Below, in pieces: positions 7,653 to 38,928 of a stretch of 64,000 bases of DNA. The stretch is from Bradyrhizobium sp. SK17. GTDB taxonomy: Bacteria > Pseudomonadota > Alphaproteobacteria > Rhizobiales > Xanthobacteraceae. The notes beneath the pieces were generated by a model. It searched no databases. It was not told the DNA's origin and saw only the letters and a list, made by a program, of their open reading frames with translations. Every line of letters starts with the position of its first letter. Position 1 is the first letter of the stretch. The stretch spans positions 7,269,001-7,333,000 of the forward strand of contig NZ_CP025113.1 of assembly GCF_002831585.1 (NCBI RefSeq), given 5' to 3'. The translations under genes and the position numbers were made by a program.

Positions 7653-8342
7653 TTAGGCCGCTTTGGCCACGTCCACCTTGCGGAAGCGAACCAGCGAGAA
7701 GTGACCGAGCGGCGGGATAAAGCGGCGTTCCGCGAGCTCCATGCCGTTCGCGCCGGCGAGCCATTTGGTATAGCGCGACCAGGCGAACTCGGCGGTGCGG
7801 AAGCCGAGCGGACGCACCACCGGCTGTAGCGTCTGCTCGATGAAGCGACGCACGCCGGCATCGGCGCTGACGCGGGTCAGGATGATCAATTCGCCGCCGG
7901 GCCGCACCACGCGCGCGAACTCGTCCATCGCGGCTTCCGGGTTCGGCACCGCGGACAGCACGTACTGCGCCATCACCACGTCGAACGAATTGTCGGGGAA
8001 TTCGAGCTTCTCGGCATCCATCACCGCGAGGCCCTCGACATTCTTCAGGCCCTGCTCGGCAACGCGCTTCTTGGCCTTCTCGAGCATCGCTTCGGAGATA
8101 TCGGTGCCGAAGATGCGAACGTTCTGGCCATAGAGCGGCAGCGAGATGCCGGTGCCGACGCCGACTTCGAGCACGCGGCCGCCGATCTTGTTGGTGGCCT
8201 GGATCGCGGCCTGCCGGCCCTTGCTGAACACGCCGCCAAACACGAGGTCGTAGATCGGCGCCCAGCGGTCATAGGCCTGCTCGACCGTTTCGCGGTCGAA
8301 GTCCATGGAACGGTCGGCGCCCAGCTTGATGATTTCAGCCAT
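7653..8342 (-). CDS. PmtA/PmtX-type phospholipid N-methyltransferase
   Basis: SAM-dependent methyltransferase of about 229 aa. The opening VEQAYDRWAPIYDLVFGGVF and the SAM-binding GGRVLEVGVGTGISLPLY, followed by FGTDISEAMLEKA and LEFPDNSFDVVMAQYVLS, match the Rhodobacter-type (PmtA/UbiE-like) phosphatidylethanolamine N-methyltransferases, of which bradyrhizobia carry several (PmtA, PmtX). It probably methylates phosphatidylethanolamine or its mono- or dimethyl forms on the way to phosphatidylcholine; which step cannot be told. The Met at 8342 follows a purine-rich GAGAG site; the open frame to 8501 overlaps the upstream glycosyltransferase and is not used. It starts 35 bases after that gene's stop, so the two are likely co-transcribed. 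Confidence 0.75.
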   Translation of the reverse strand: MAEIIKLGADRSMDFDRETVEQAYDRWAPIYDLVFGGVFSKGRQAAIQATNKIGGRVLEVGVGTGISLPLYGQNVRIFGTDISEAMLEKAKKRVAEQGLKNVEGLAVMDAEKLEFPDNSFDVVMAQYVLSAVPNPEAAMDEFARVVRPGGELIILTRVSADAGVRRFIEQTLQPVVRPLGFRTAEFAWSRYTKWLAGANGMELAERRFIPPLGHFSLVRFRKVDVAKAA

Positions 8343-8376
8343 AGAGAGTCTCTCGTCTTTCGTTCGATTGAGCTGT

Positions 8377-9432
8377 TTAATTCGGAACCGCACTGCGGCC
8401 GGCGACGCGGCGGGCGGGCCGCGGCGCGCGGCTCGGCTGCAACGTGGCCAGATTGCCGATGAACTGACGCGCACTGTTTTCCCAGGAACGCTCCAACGCA
8501 AAATTGCGGCAATCTGCGCGCGACATGGTCAGCGCGCGCAGACAGGCGTTGCGCAGATCGTTGTCGATCGCTCCGATCGGATGGTCTGATATGACGTCCT
8601 TCGGGCCGGTGACCGGGAACGCCGCGACCGGCGTGCCGCAGGCCAGCGCCTCGAGCTGCACGACGCCGAACGTGTCGGTCAGGCTCGGGAACACGAAGAC
8701 GTCGGCGGCGGCGAGGTGCGAGGTCAAATCCTGCCCCTTCTTCTCGCCTAGGAAAATCGCGTCGGGATATTTCTGTTCCAATGCCGCCCTTTGCGGGCCA
8801 TCGCCGACCACGACCTTGGAGCCCGGCAAATCGAGCGACAGGAAGGCGTCGAGATTCTTCTCCACCGCGACGCGGCCCATGGTCATGAAGATCGGCCGCG
8901 GCAGATCGAGCACCGCCGGCTGGTCGGGATTGAAGATCTTGGTATCGACGCCGCGGGTCCAGAAGCCGAGGCGGCGGAAGCCACGCTCGGCAAGCTCCGA
9001 CCGCAGCGAGTCGGTCGCGACCATCGTCATTGAGCCGGCGGCGTGGAAATGGCGCAGCACCGCGTAGCCGACGCTGTCCGGAATGCCGGTACGTACGGAA
9101 ACATACTCGGGAAAGCGCGTTGTGTAGGATGTGGTGAACGCGAGCTTGTTGCGCTGGCAATAGCCGCGCACCGCCCAGCCGATCGGCCCTTCGGTCGCGA
9201 TATGGATCGCCTCGGGCGCGGCGTCCTCGATCCGGCGCGCGATCTCGCGGCGGTTCGGCAGCGCCATCCGCAATCCCGGATAGGTCGGCACGCCGACCGA
9301 GCGGAAACCGTCGGGGGTGAGGAATTCGATCTCGGCGCCGAGGGTCGCGGCGCTGCGCGCAAGCGACGTCAGCGTCCGGACCACGCCGTTGACTTGCGGA
9401 TGCCAGGCATCGGTCGCAACGAGTATGCGCAT
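8377..9432 (-). CDS. GT4-family glycosyltransferase, probably lipid-linked
   Basis: Glycosyltransferase of 351 aa with the two-domain GT-B plan. The N-terminus DAWHPQVNGVVRTLTSLAR is characteristic of GT4 enzymes making glycolipids or mannosides. The C-terminal domain has MGRVAVEKNLDAFL, VVVGDGPQR and the nucleotide-sugar-binding FPSLTDTFGVVQLEALACG (E-x7-E type). Sequence style resembles diacylglycerol glycosyltransferases such as SqdX/Agt. Its partner is a phospholipid methyltransferase gene 35 bases downstream, supporting a membrane-lipid role. The donor sugar and acceptor are not determined. A Pho-box-like sequence lies about 130 bases upstream. Confidence 0.75.
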   Translation of the reverse strand: MRILVATDAWHPQVNGVVRTLTSLARSAATLGAEIEFLTPDGFRSVGVPTYPGLRMALPNRREIARRIEDAAPEAIHIATEGPIGWAVRGYCQRNKLAFTTSYTTRFPEYVSVRTGIPDSVGYAVLRHFHAAGSMTMVATDSLRSELAERGFRRLGFWTRGVDTKIFNPDQPAVLDLPRPIFMTMGRVAVEKNLDAFLSLDLPGSKVVVGDGPQRAALEQKYPDAIFLGEKKGQDLTSHLAAADVFVFPSLTDTFGVVQLEALACGTPVAAFPVTGPKDVISDHPIGAIDNDLRNACLRALTMSRADCRNFALERSWENSARQFIGNLATLQPSRAPRPARRVAGRSAVPN

Positions 9433-9560
9433 TGCAGGAGATCCAAATCGTTAATTGTCGATTCTGCTCGCACGACGTTCTGACATGGATGTTTCAAACG
9501 TATGACGTCATCGAAATGTTAGGTTGTTTTTCACGGCAAACGCCCGGTTTTTCGTGTAAG

Positions 9561-16024: not shown

Positions 16025-17233
16025 ATGAAACTGCTCTTGGCCGCAGCCGCGGCCAGCCTCGCGCTTGCGGCCTCCGGCACCGCAGCCAACGCCCAGATCT
16101 CCGACGACGTCGTCAAGATCGGCGTGCTCACCGATATGTCGAGCCTCTATGCGGACGCCACCGGCAAGGGTTCGGTCGCCGCCGTCGAGATGGCGGTCGC
16201 CGATTACGGCGGCAAGGTGAAGGGCAAGCCGGTGCAGGTGGTCGCGGCCGATCACCAGAACAAGCCTGACGTCGGCGTCAGCATCGCGCGCAACTGGTAC
16301 GACAACGAGAAGGTCGATGCGATCCTCGACGTGCCGACATCCTCGGTGGCGCTGCCGATCTCGGCGCTGACGCGCGAGAAGAACAAGATCAACATCAACT
16401 CCGGCGGCGGCTCTTCCGACATCACCGGCCCGGCCTGCTCGCCCAACACGGTGCACTGGACTTACGACACCTATGCGCTGTCGAACGTCGCCGGCAAGGC
16501 GATGGTGAAGCGCGGCGAGGACACCTGGTTCTTCGTCACCGCCGATTACGCCTTCGGCATGGCGCTGCAACGCGACGCCGCCAACGTCGTCAAGGAAAGC
16601 GGCGGCAAGGTGCTCGGCGAGGTCCGGCATCCCCTGAACTCGTCGGACTTCTCGTCCTTCCTGCTACAGGCCCAGGCCTCCAAGGCCAAGGTCGTGGCGC
16701 TGGCCAATGCCGGTGGCGACACCACCAACGCCCTGAAACAGGCCTCCGAATTCGGCCTGACCCAGGGCGGGCAGAAGATGATCGCGCTGCTGATGGAAAT
16801 CACCGACACCCACGCGCTGGGCCTGAAGGCAACGCAGGGCCTGATCGTCACCGACGCCTTCTACTGGGACATGAACGACGAGACCCGCGCCTTCTCGAAG
16901 CGCTTCAACGAGAAGGTGGGCCACATGCCGACCATGATCCAGGCCGGGCTCTATTCGGCGACCATGCATTACCTCAAGGCGATCGAGGCGATCGGCAGCG
17001 ACGAAGCGCCGAAGGTGATGGAGCAGATGCGCAAGACGCCGATCAACGACTTCTTCGCCAAGAACGGCCATATCCGGATCGACGGCCGCATGGTGCACGA
17101 CATGTATCTGTTCGAGACCAAGAAGCCCGAGGAATCCAAGAACGAGTGGGATCTCTACAAGCTGATCGCCACCGTGCCCGGCGACGAGGCGTTCCGCCCG
17201 CTCGACAAGGGCGGCTGTCCACTGGTGAAGTGA
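16025..17233 (+). CDS. LivK-like ABC transporter substrate-binding protein
   Basis: Periplasmic binding protein of 402 aa, type I fold. A signal peptide (MKLLLAAAAASLALAASG, cleavage near NAQ) is followed by ISDDVVKIGVLTDMSSLYAD, the opening strand of branched-chain amino-acid/amide receptors. The middle has NSGGGSSDITGPAC and the dipeptide-like hinge FFVTADYAFGMALQRDA. No permease or ATPase gene is adjacent, as often found for expanded LivK families in rhizobia. The ATG at 16025 has GGGAGAGAA just upstream; the frame open from 15980 is leader sequence. A good terminator follows at 17282. Confidence 0.85.
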   Translation: MKLLLAAAAASLALAASGTAANAQISDDVVKIGVLTDMSSLYADATGKGSVAAVEMAVADYGGKVKGKPVQVVAADHQNKPDVGVSIARNWYDNEKVDAILDVPTSSVALPISALTREKNKININSGGGSSDITGPACSPNTVHWTYDTYALSNVAGKAMVKRGEDTWFFVTADYAFGMALQRDAANVVKESGGKVLGEVRHPLNSSDFSSFLLQAQASKAKVVALANAGGDTTNALKQASEFGLTQGGQKMIALLMEITDTHALGLKATQGLIVTDAFYWDMNDETRAFSKRFNEKVGHMPTMIQAGLYSATMHYLKAIEAIGSDEAPKVMEQMRKTPINDFFAKNGHIRIDGRMVHDMYLFETKKPEESKNEWDLYKLIATVPGDEAFRPLDKGGCPLVK

Positions 17234-35303: not shown

Positions 35304-35500
35304 GGTTCTCCGGAGACGCCCGAGTCGGCCTCGGACGTCTTTCCTCGCGGAAAGTTAAGAGTGCTGCGGCGAACGACGCCGACGGCGTACGACATTGGCG
35401 GCGCTTGAGCCGCAACTAAACTAGGTCGAAGGATGATCGCTGTTTCCCTCAATCAGAACGTGTGCCATAGATCATAGCGCGCAAACTTGGGCACCTCGAT

Positions 35501-35869
35501 ATGAAATATATTGGTAAGATACGTAATCTTCCTCCAGGAAAGACCTACGGATTCATTCAAAATCAGGCGGACGGCAAAGACTATTTCTTTCACTCCTCGG
35601 AATTGAGAGGGATTTGGCATGTCTTGCGCGTTGGCGACGACGTTCAGTTCGAGTTGGGGGAGAAAGATGGAAGAGTGCAGGCAAACTGCGTGGAGGTAAT
35701 GGTCGCGAACGTCAAAGGTCGCGCTCCACGACTCGTTGGCCCCTACGCCGGACCCGATTTTGGCCTCAGCGATCAAGAGCGCGCCCGCAGCCTTAACGAG
35801 GTGGCACGCTGGAAACTCGAAGCAAAGCTAGACGACATCAGGCGTATTTTTTTGCGATCCCAGAGCTGA
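35501..35869 (+). CDS. Cold-shock-like domain protein, N-terminal part of a frameshifted fusion
   Basis: 122-aa reading frame of distinctly lower GC than its neighbours. Residues ~1-70 form a cold-shock/OB-type domain: GKIRNLPPGKTYGFIQNQ with the RNP1-like YGFI, KDYFFHSSELRG as the RNP2-like strand, and VGDDVQFELGEKDGRVQANC. A helical linker follows (LSDQERARSLNEVARWKLEA). At the T7 run (35847-35853) the frame ends after five more codons, but a shift of one base continues seamlessly into a P-loop ATPase. It should bind RNA or single-stranded DNA. It probably was, or is, the N-terminus of a ~565-aa protein. Confidence 0.65.
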   Translation: MKYIGKIRNLPPGKTYGFIQNQADGKDYFFHSSELRGIWHVLRVGDDVQFELGEKDGRVQANCVEVMVANVKGRAPRLVGPYAGPDFGLSDQERARSLNEVARWKLEAKLDDIRRIFLRSQS

Positions 35870-37196
35870 ACTTCATCGAGACAGGAGACGCATCGTACGT
35901 CATCGGAAGGAAGGGCACCGGGAAGACGGCACTAGTCCAGTACTTGTCTGACACCGCCGATGACAACAAGCATGTCTCGAAATTGACCTTTAAGAACTTC
36001 CCATTCAACGAACTCTACGCTCAAGGCAATGAGAGTTATCGTAAGCCAAATCAGTATATTACAATTTGGAAATTGATCATCTACTCGGCGGCTTGCAAGC
36101 TGATTGCGAAAAGCGAGCGCTGCGATCCTCTCATCAGAAACACGATTCTGAAGGCTTTCCCGAACCCGGACAGCGACAATCTGGGAACGATAATTGGCCA
36201 ATGGATCGCAGGAGATTTTGGCATCAGCGTTTTGGGGACAGGCATCAACATTTCGAAATGGTTCAAGGAAAAAAGAAGATAACCATCCAAGAGAAAGTTG
36301 AAAACCTCGAGCAGTTCGTCATCAAGCACATGCCTGACGAAACCTACCTGGTATTGTTTGACGAACTTGACGAAGACTACAAGGACATCTTCGAAACCTA
36401 CAACAAGAGCGAGTATCTCGATCTGCTCACAAGTCTCTTTAAAGCCGTTCAAGACATCCGATCTATCGTGACCGCCAAGGGGCACAAGTTGTATCCCGTC
36501 GTTTTTCTACGAGACGACATATATGATCTTTTGCGCGACCCTGACAAAAATAAGTGGCGCGACTTCCAGGTCGACCTTGAGTGGACCCCCGAAGGCATCA
36601 AGGGCCTCCTGTCGCACAGACTTGCCAAGGTTTTCGGCCAAACAAATGAGAACTTCGACGCTCTCTGGTATTCAATCTTCGCGAGAGAGCCTGTTAGATT
36701 CTCCGACGGCAAAAAAACTACGGGTTCATTTGACTACATAACCATGAGCACGCAGGGGCGCCCCAGGGATTACATAAACTATCTGCAAGAATGCGCTGCA
36801 CTTGAGCTTAAACGATCTAAGCGGGAGATATCGACTGAGACGATTAAGGATGCAGACAAATTATATTCCAACTACCTGAGAAAGGAGCTTATCGATGAAA
36901 TTCACGGGATCATTCCGGACATCGGCAAAGTGCTTTCCATCTTTTCTGAAACCAGAAAATGGATCCTCAGCATAAGCGAGTTTAAGAAGGCGTATGAGGA
37001 GAGAGTTCAGTCTGGAGCGATGCAAGTAAAAGACGTTGATATGGTATTAAAAACTCTCTTCTACTTCTCGATCATTGGGAACGTGGTAAGAGTAGGGGTT
37101 CACATATTTAGACATGTGCGGCCAGAGGCAGAGCTCAACTTCAAAGAAAAGATTGTAGTTCATCGCGGGCTCATGAAGTCTCTCCAAATAATCTAG
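35797..37196 (+). pseudogene. P-loop ATPase (Sll1717-like), two frameshifts relative to the upstream domain
   Basis: C-terminal ~450 residues of a P-loop NTPase spread over two frames. Frame one (35797-36282) holds Walker A GRKGTGKT at 35905-35928 after FIETGDASYVI. It runs to NISKWFKEKRR and a stop at 36280. Frame two continues as KKITIQEKVENLEQF, with Walker B YLVLFDELDEDY near 36345, the arginine-bearing VVFLRDDIYDLL and STQGRPRDYINYLQECAA, ending at 37196. The join is at A6 (36269-36274). Adding one base at each of T7 and A6 gives one 566-codon frame from 35501, an exact multiple of three. Motif style recalls the Sll1717 ATPase family (held tentatively). Low GC suggests transfer. It is either a decayed gene or one with two sequencing errors. 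Confidence 0.6.
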
Positions 37197-37266
37197 CCGA
37201 CGCGACCGTGTCGCTGAGATTGTTCAGCGGCACTATGAACCGGGCGAGTTGGTGGGTTACGCTGCG

Positions 37267-38928
<1,662 letters not shown>

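Follow-up and report, generated by a model that had tools for sequence, protein, structure and literature searches.

What do the three overlapping, low-GC open reading frames (ORFs) downstream of thiC in Bradyrhizobium sp. SK17 encode, and how did they come to lie there? The window analysed here is a stretch of 64,000 nucleotides (contig NZ_CP025113.1, positions 7,269,001 to 7,333,000) from a genome of 8.29 Mb in two contigs, and the ORFs occupy its positions 35501-37196. A first-pass annotation, made from the letters alone, had read them as a cold-shock domain (CSD), a linker and a P-loop ATPase in one frame running over two homopolymers. We confirmed that the three open pieces are one protein with its frame broken at two homopolymer runs; the read-through product has 565 amino acids, and the closest relative among the listed homologues (P0003, 564 amino acids) is intact and 90% identical over its whole length. 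Overall, we favour, with some reserve, the reading that the gene came by horizontal transfer and encodes a single-gene anti-phage system: an ATPase of the Fun(Z)/Sll1717 family, in a variant with an N-terminal CSD.

The pieces overlap and are joined at two homopolymers, one of T and one of A, in the following setting:

35501..35869, plus strand, open frame 1: piece 1, cold-shock domain (residues about 1-70; PF00313) and linker
35797..36282, plus strand, open frame 3: piece 2, start of the ATPase with the conserved Walker A motif
36045..37196, plus strand, open frame 2: piece 3, Walker B, sensor motifs, helical lid, predicted C-terminal winged helix (model of P0003) and VHRGL tail; family NF047389
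33405..35303, plus strand: thiC, an ORF of 632 amino acids whose 3' end forms the constant border of the variable site
35304..37311, no strand: variable segment from thiC to the monooxygenase, where relatives have other DNA
37312..38928, minus strand: conserved flavin monooxygenase (named by eye), with a 93% match in a relative; the segment's other edge in close relatives

Within piece 3, family-like sequence begins at about 36264. The GC of the gene is 0.478, compared to about 0.65 in the flanks on both sides, so the low-GC insert described in the annotation was borne out. When the pieces were compared to the copy in a second Bradyrhizobium genome (G246), differences concentrated at the third position of codons (0.54-0.61, compared to 0.05-0.28 at the first and second), indicating that the pieces are coding sequence under purifying selection. 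Protein identity between the two copies was 64% in the CSD part and 87-89% in the ATPase parts.

The protein search scored 7995 candidates and gave 1240 homologues, of which the best 120 were examined; together with the window read-through they make up the 121 rows used below. The CSD of piece 1 scored 40.3 bits against Pfam PF00313 (gathering cut-off 27), and its RNP-type residues G17, F18, F29 and H31 were common to 57-61 of the 64 rows with a CSD. The read-through protein has both Walker motifs, A (GRKGTGKT) and B (FDELDED), each residue being common to 117-121 of the 121 rows, except the fifth residue of Walker A (91/121); RDDI, RPRD and the C-terminal HRGL tail were also strongly conserved. 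Piece 3 alone scored 197.3 bits against NF047389 (NCBIfam P-loop ATPase, Sll1717 family; cut-off 75) and is thus a member, with the intact relative P0003 at 270.9 bits. Fun(Z) of phage P2 (AAD03288) belongs to the same family with 209 bits, and its alignment to the family profile (hhalign, 444 columns, E 4.7e-17) covered the ATPase and the C-terminal part.

For P0003, the predicted architecture is a CSD, an ORC/Cdc6-like AAA+ core and a C-terminal winged helix. The CSD fold of the model matched 4qqb at 1.0 A, and the best structural matches include Orc1/Cdc6, TnsC and Sso1545; the VIA-align list for this protein covered AAA+, STAND and CSD folds, and families outside it may fit as well. The likeness to ORC/Cdc6 is structural only, as P0003 scored 19.1 bits against PF24389 (ORC-CDC6-like), below the gathering cut-off of 27, with the relative P0034 at 29.3. 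A sequence search of solved structures found relatives of the CSD, and its best row for the ATPase part had an E value of 0.68.

The CSD was matched by a profile built from the family in 64 of the 121 rows, window included, and most of the rows that lack it (44/57) start 0-11 residues ahead of a conserved WKLEAK. On a tree of 117 ATPase cores, made by a quick method that left 39 of 114 inner branches open, the CSD label required nine changes, or seven without two rows with cut N-termini; the CSD therefore looks like a recurrent, swappable N-terminus. In P0110, a treble-clef zinc domain takes its place, and two members of the family (P0103, P0122) carry the source name 'FunZ protein'. The first-pass annotation had known of no described system with this combination, which does not hold: about half of the rows have it, NCBI names the ATPase family (NF047389), and fusions of a CSD to an AAA+ NTPase are known from CoCoNuT systems. 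A literature search, with subscription papers mostly outside its reach, found no paper under Sll1717 and none on a CSD-Sll1717 fusion.

The gene is rare in all genome samples, which overlap one another. Within the genus, nine of 265 genomes (own included) matched at 1e-10, and a full-length ortholog was present in two, the own genome and G246; the other seven matches were 24-28% identical. At 1e-30, the order sample gave 4/397 genomes (best apart from own, 38%); the family-level sample gave 2/323, and the phylum sample 1/398, the own genome only. Sixteen plasmid records matched, one with at least 80% coverage, and viral contigs yielded one provirus match, which is CSD-less. This relative (locus L085, 2049-3569) adjoins an integrase-like ORF at the provirus end (neighbours judged by eye), where phage-borne exclusion genes are often located. 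The gene was most likely acquired horizontally, as the annotation had proposed, considering its low GC, its presence in two of 265 genus genomes and a Rhodopseudomonas protein that is as close to the window copy as the one of G246 (tree paths 0.16 and 0.17, respectively). Two results that the annotation had named as contrary to its proposal did not appear: the CSD does occur in relatives of the ATPase, and not all relatives have the gene at this place.

The 3' end of thiC was located in 257 of the 265 genus genomes, and its flank was compared in 92 genomes; close relatives and closed genomes are over-represented among them, and 29 of the flanks were covered over no more than 1.5 kb. As the next conserved gene, we took the first tblastn match of one of six chosen reference genes. 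It was within reach in 64 genomes, lay within 200 bp in 13 and beyond 400 bp in 50 (median 1145 bp), and starts 8 bp past the end of thiC in two. Stretches of 400 bp at a GC of 0.50 or less were found in 38 of the 92 flanks (38 of the 78 that are at least 400 bp long), compared to 51 of 2000 random stretches of matching lengths from one relative. Such a stretch was seen in 0/18, 0/29 and 1/29 relatives at three control gene ends and in 6/19 at thiC (the relative sets overlap and are not identical); with a looser threshold of 0.52, one control site rose to 3/29 and thiC to 8/19. Eleven lower-identity, paralogue-like loci (L193-L203) were left out of the count at the control site near 17230.

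The cargo at the thiC flank varies between genomes and species. ORFs of at least 100 amino acids with a GC below 0.575 numbered 79 from 57 loci, and 78 of them were scanned, the CSD-ATPase of G246 being left out. Pfam, run on the cargo only, matched 37 families (25 shown), among them TIR, RelA/SpoT, CBS, AAA_15/21, GmrSD_N, Abi_C, SIR2_2, NACHT, Swt1-like HEPN, HNH and an IrrE-like peptidase. PADLOC families matched numbered 100 among the 78 cargo proteins and five among 78 length-matched control ORFs from one relative, which were not selected for GC (mean 0.64), unlike the cargo; these are counts of families, not of matching proteins, and they overstate the difference, because one ATPase accounts for 51 of the 100. 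Ten cargo proteins were also scanned singly, and three matched PADLOC at 1e-5, namely a HEC-01A/HEC-01B pair and an NsnA-like protein. A candidate defence pair of the HEC-01A/HEC-01B type lies in the thiC flank of two genomes (L119, 3113-4880; L108, 293-1982). Directly 3' of thiC, four further loci (L141, L143, L132 and L070) hold a low-GC protein of up to 380 amino acids with CBS domains, whose C-terminal RNEVMH stretch looks HEPN-like by eye; a separate PADLOC scan of the L143 protein gave no match. In G014, the thiC flank holds yet another low-GC protein, this one with a motif resembling Walker A (L140, 4423-5499), and PADLOC did not match it either.

How such cargo enters is hinted at by a fragment of the thiC 3' end that is repeated 0.5-0.8 kb 3' of thiC in five relatives (L030 in G023, L059 in G152, L063 in G100, L065 in G299 and L068 in G049), which makes recombination between thiC copies one conceivable way in. 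Four of the five repeats begin near thiC position 1575-1580, as if the cargo had brought its own thiC end, and their nearly identical break point possibly reflects one event. After the window gene, no thiC copy was found; thiC matches in the rest of the window were at most 29 bases long, and none stands out beside the gene. A short repeat at 37242-37281, also present 3' of thiC in the relatives L029, L032, L039, L044 and L048, is probably a dispersed repeat. The literature search, judged by titles, found no paper on a thiC hotspot.

Our proposal for how the protein works starts from the CSD, which sequence and model mark as a putative binder or sensor of single-stranded nucleic acid. The CSD, and the winged helix, would bind single-stranded RNA or DNA exposed during phage takeover; binding would license the ORC/Cdc6-like AAA+ core to assemble in an ATP-dependent manner, and once assembled, the protein would halt phage growth, probably by abortive infection as reported for Fun(Z). 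The gene lies in the thiC 3' flank, where the genus holds changing defence-like cargo. The first-pass annotation had suggested a nucleic-acid-sensing anti-phage effector: its anti-phage leaning is strengthened by P2 Fun(Z) as a family member and by the cargo at the site, whereas the nucleic-acid trigger sensed by the CSD, the oligomerisation and the anti-phage outcome are steps that we infer. More broadly, we tentatively propose that CSD-fused Fun(Z)-type ATPases are a widespread single-gene immunity branch, in which the CSD might read single-stranded nucleic acid, from either the invader or the host as it collapses, and trigger the ORC/Cdc6-like ATPase, and that the thiC 3' flank is a genus-wide Bradyrhizobium hotspot for the exchange of such genes, singly or in pairs and apparently with no integrase involved. 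The flank provides a defined place in which to seek new defence candidates in soil symbionts.

Several observations weigh against an anti-phage ATPase acquired by this strain. The window copy has two frame breaks; Pfam recognised no effector domain in P0003, and a collection of 50,697 phage records gave no match at 1e-5. At the site, seven of the ten cargo proteins scanned one by one went unmatched by PADLOC at 1e-5, and part of the cargo is clearly of a non-defence kind (SnoaL-like, beta-lactamase-fold, CobT-like). P0003 also falls far below membership of the DS-41 model (34.5 bits, cut-off 370), and function may differ from that of Fun(Z), which has a BLASTP identity of 19% and lacks both the CSD and FDELDED. 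The frame breaks, about 420 bp apart, raise the question of whether the copy is a dead remnant, an acquired gene that is now a pseudogene without function in this strain, a reading that we rate as a serious possibility, nearly in balance. The window copy, broken in frame, may indeed be inactive, and 42 other window genes match a relative's ORF unbroken over at least 90%, in a list chosen for being unbroken; among ORFs of three relatives with a match of at least 70%, 95 were unbroken and four split (partial matches not counted), at least one of the four, at 7701-9459, spanning two genes. A CSD-less relative in another genome of the order (G377; L053, 8822-9865 and 9886-10260) is also in two open pieces, so broken copies recur. 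However, the gene has no other damage, its motifs are intact, and an unbroken relative is still 90% identical to it. Each break falls within an A/T run of at least six bases and may be a sequencing error; on this, the comparison with intact genes is silent, because none of the 39 genes checked (three doubtful ORFs of the 42 left out) holds an A/T run of that length. Programmed frameshifting was put aside, as the close relatives P0003 and G246 read without a shift; the first break could still fit, since the T run, read in the frame upstream of it, makes a suitable slippery heptamer (ATT TTT TTG), unlike the A run (GAA AAA AGA).

Descent and function were weighed in the same way against the acquired anti-phage ATPase. 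An old genus gene at the thiC site, lost nearly everywhere, would explain why G246 has the intact gene in the same place, 210 bp 3' of thiC, with a uracil-DNA-glycosylase-like gene, presumably mug, 38 bp further on. Between window and G246, thiC is 89% identical in DNA, compared to 76% over 1.4 kb for the CSD-ATPase gene, whose CSD part has no DNA match, and the spacers 5' and 3' of the gene are unmatched apart from short repeats; the thiC site is thus shared and simple descent is unlikely. With the closeness of the Rhodopseudomonas protein and orthologs in two of 265 genomes added, we regard vertical inheritance as quite improbable. It is somewhat easier, though still unlikely in our view, to see the protein as an ATPase tied to stress or replication, a DNA-loading factor resembling ORC/Cdc6 or TnsC that is carried for a non-defence role, given the structural matches to Orc1/Cdc6, TnsC and Sso1545 and the PF24389 match, below cut-off for P0003. 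According to its record, Fun(Z) blocks T5 growth and confers sensitivity to fluorodeoxyuridine (FUdR), and the latter phenotype suggests, as a lead only, a link with DNA synthesis or with nucleotide stress, which would suit a role in DNA or nucleotide metabolism. Phage exclusion by Fun(Z) speaks against such a role, as does the position of a single gene between chromosomal genes in both window and G246, where inspection of the ORF lists by eye revealed no transposase. Membership of a retron is very improbable: type V and Se72 effectors are CSD proteins, the window CSD matched PADLOC CSD_V and, weakly, retron_eff_Se72, but the latter score of 30 bits is below the cut-off of 82, and the genome's only RVT_1 match (C1:4649299) lies about 2.65 Mb from the gene (C1:7304501).

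Compared to known systems, the CSD-ATPase shares a CSD with type V and Se72 retron effectors and has no reverse transcriptase near it. DS-41, a validated anti-phage system of DefensePredictor (PMC13092281), was equated with NF053860 from the model name DS41_1_antiphage and weakly matched the Walker A region of P0003; PADLOC PDC-M28C gave a partial match (E 1.1e-8) over profile positions 153-274 of 480 only. Closer in layout is CnuB of type I CoCoNuT, which PMC11090510 presents as a CSD fused to a McrB-like GTPase with predicted RNA targeting, so both proteins carry an N-terminal CSD on an AAA+ NTPase. As described there, CnuB differs in belonging to another NTPase family and in its operon with a CnuC partner and coiled coils, whereas the window gene is single; its neighbours, judged by eye, are thiC and the monooxygenase (no search for DUF2357, CnuC/McrC, was made), and P0003 scored 12.1 bits against AAA_5 (PF07728), a stand-in for the McrB-like GTPase, below the cut-off of 22. 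CSD-less members of NF047389 (about 477 amino acids, for example in Pseudomonas) share the same ATPase at about 45-50% identity.

The best characterised relative is P2 Fun(Z), homologous over the ATPase and the C-terminal part and different in being phage-borne, in having no CSD, in its Walker B (FIDGID, compared to FDELDED) and in an identity of about 19-20%. In P2-like phages, fun is described with inverted repeats on its flanks (PMC8987985); no inverted-repeat pair framing the CSD-ATPase gene was found in the window. The BASEL study (PMC8594841, 2021) describes Fun/Z as a system of abortive infection that acts on Tevenvirinae, Vequintavirinae, Markadamsvirinae and one Felixounavirus and gives its mechanism as unknown at that time. 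On that account, Fun(Z) stops many kinds of large coliphage. A family branch with a recognisable, putatively nucleic-acid-binding domain would offer a direct handle on the mechanism.
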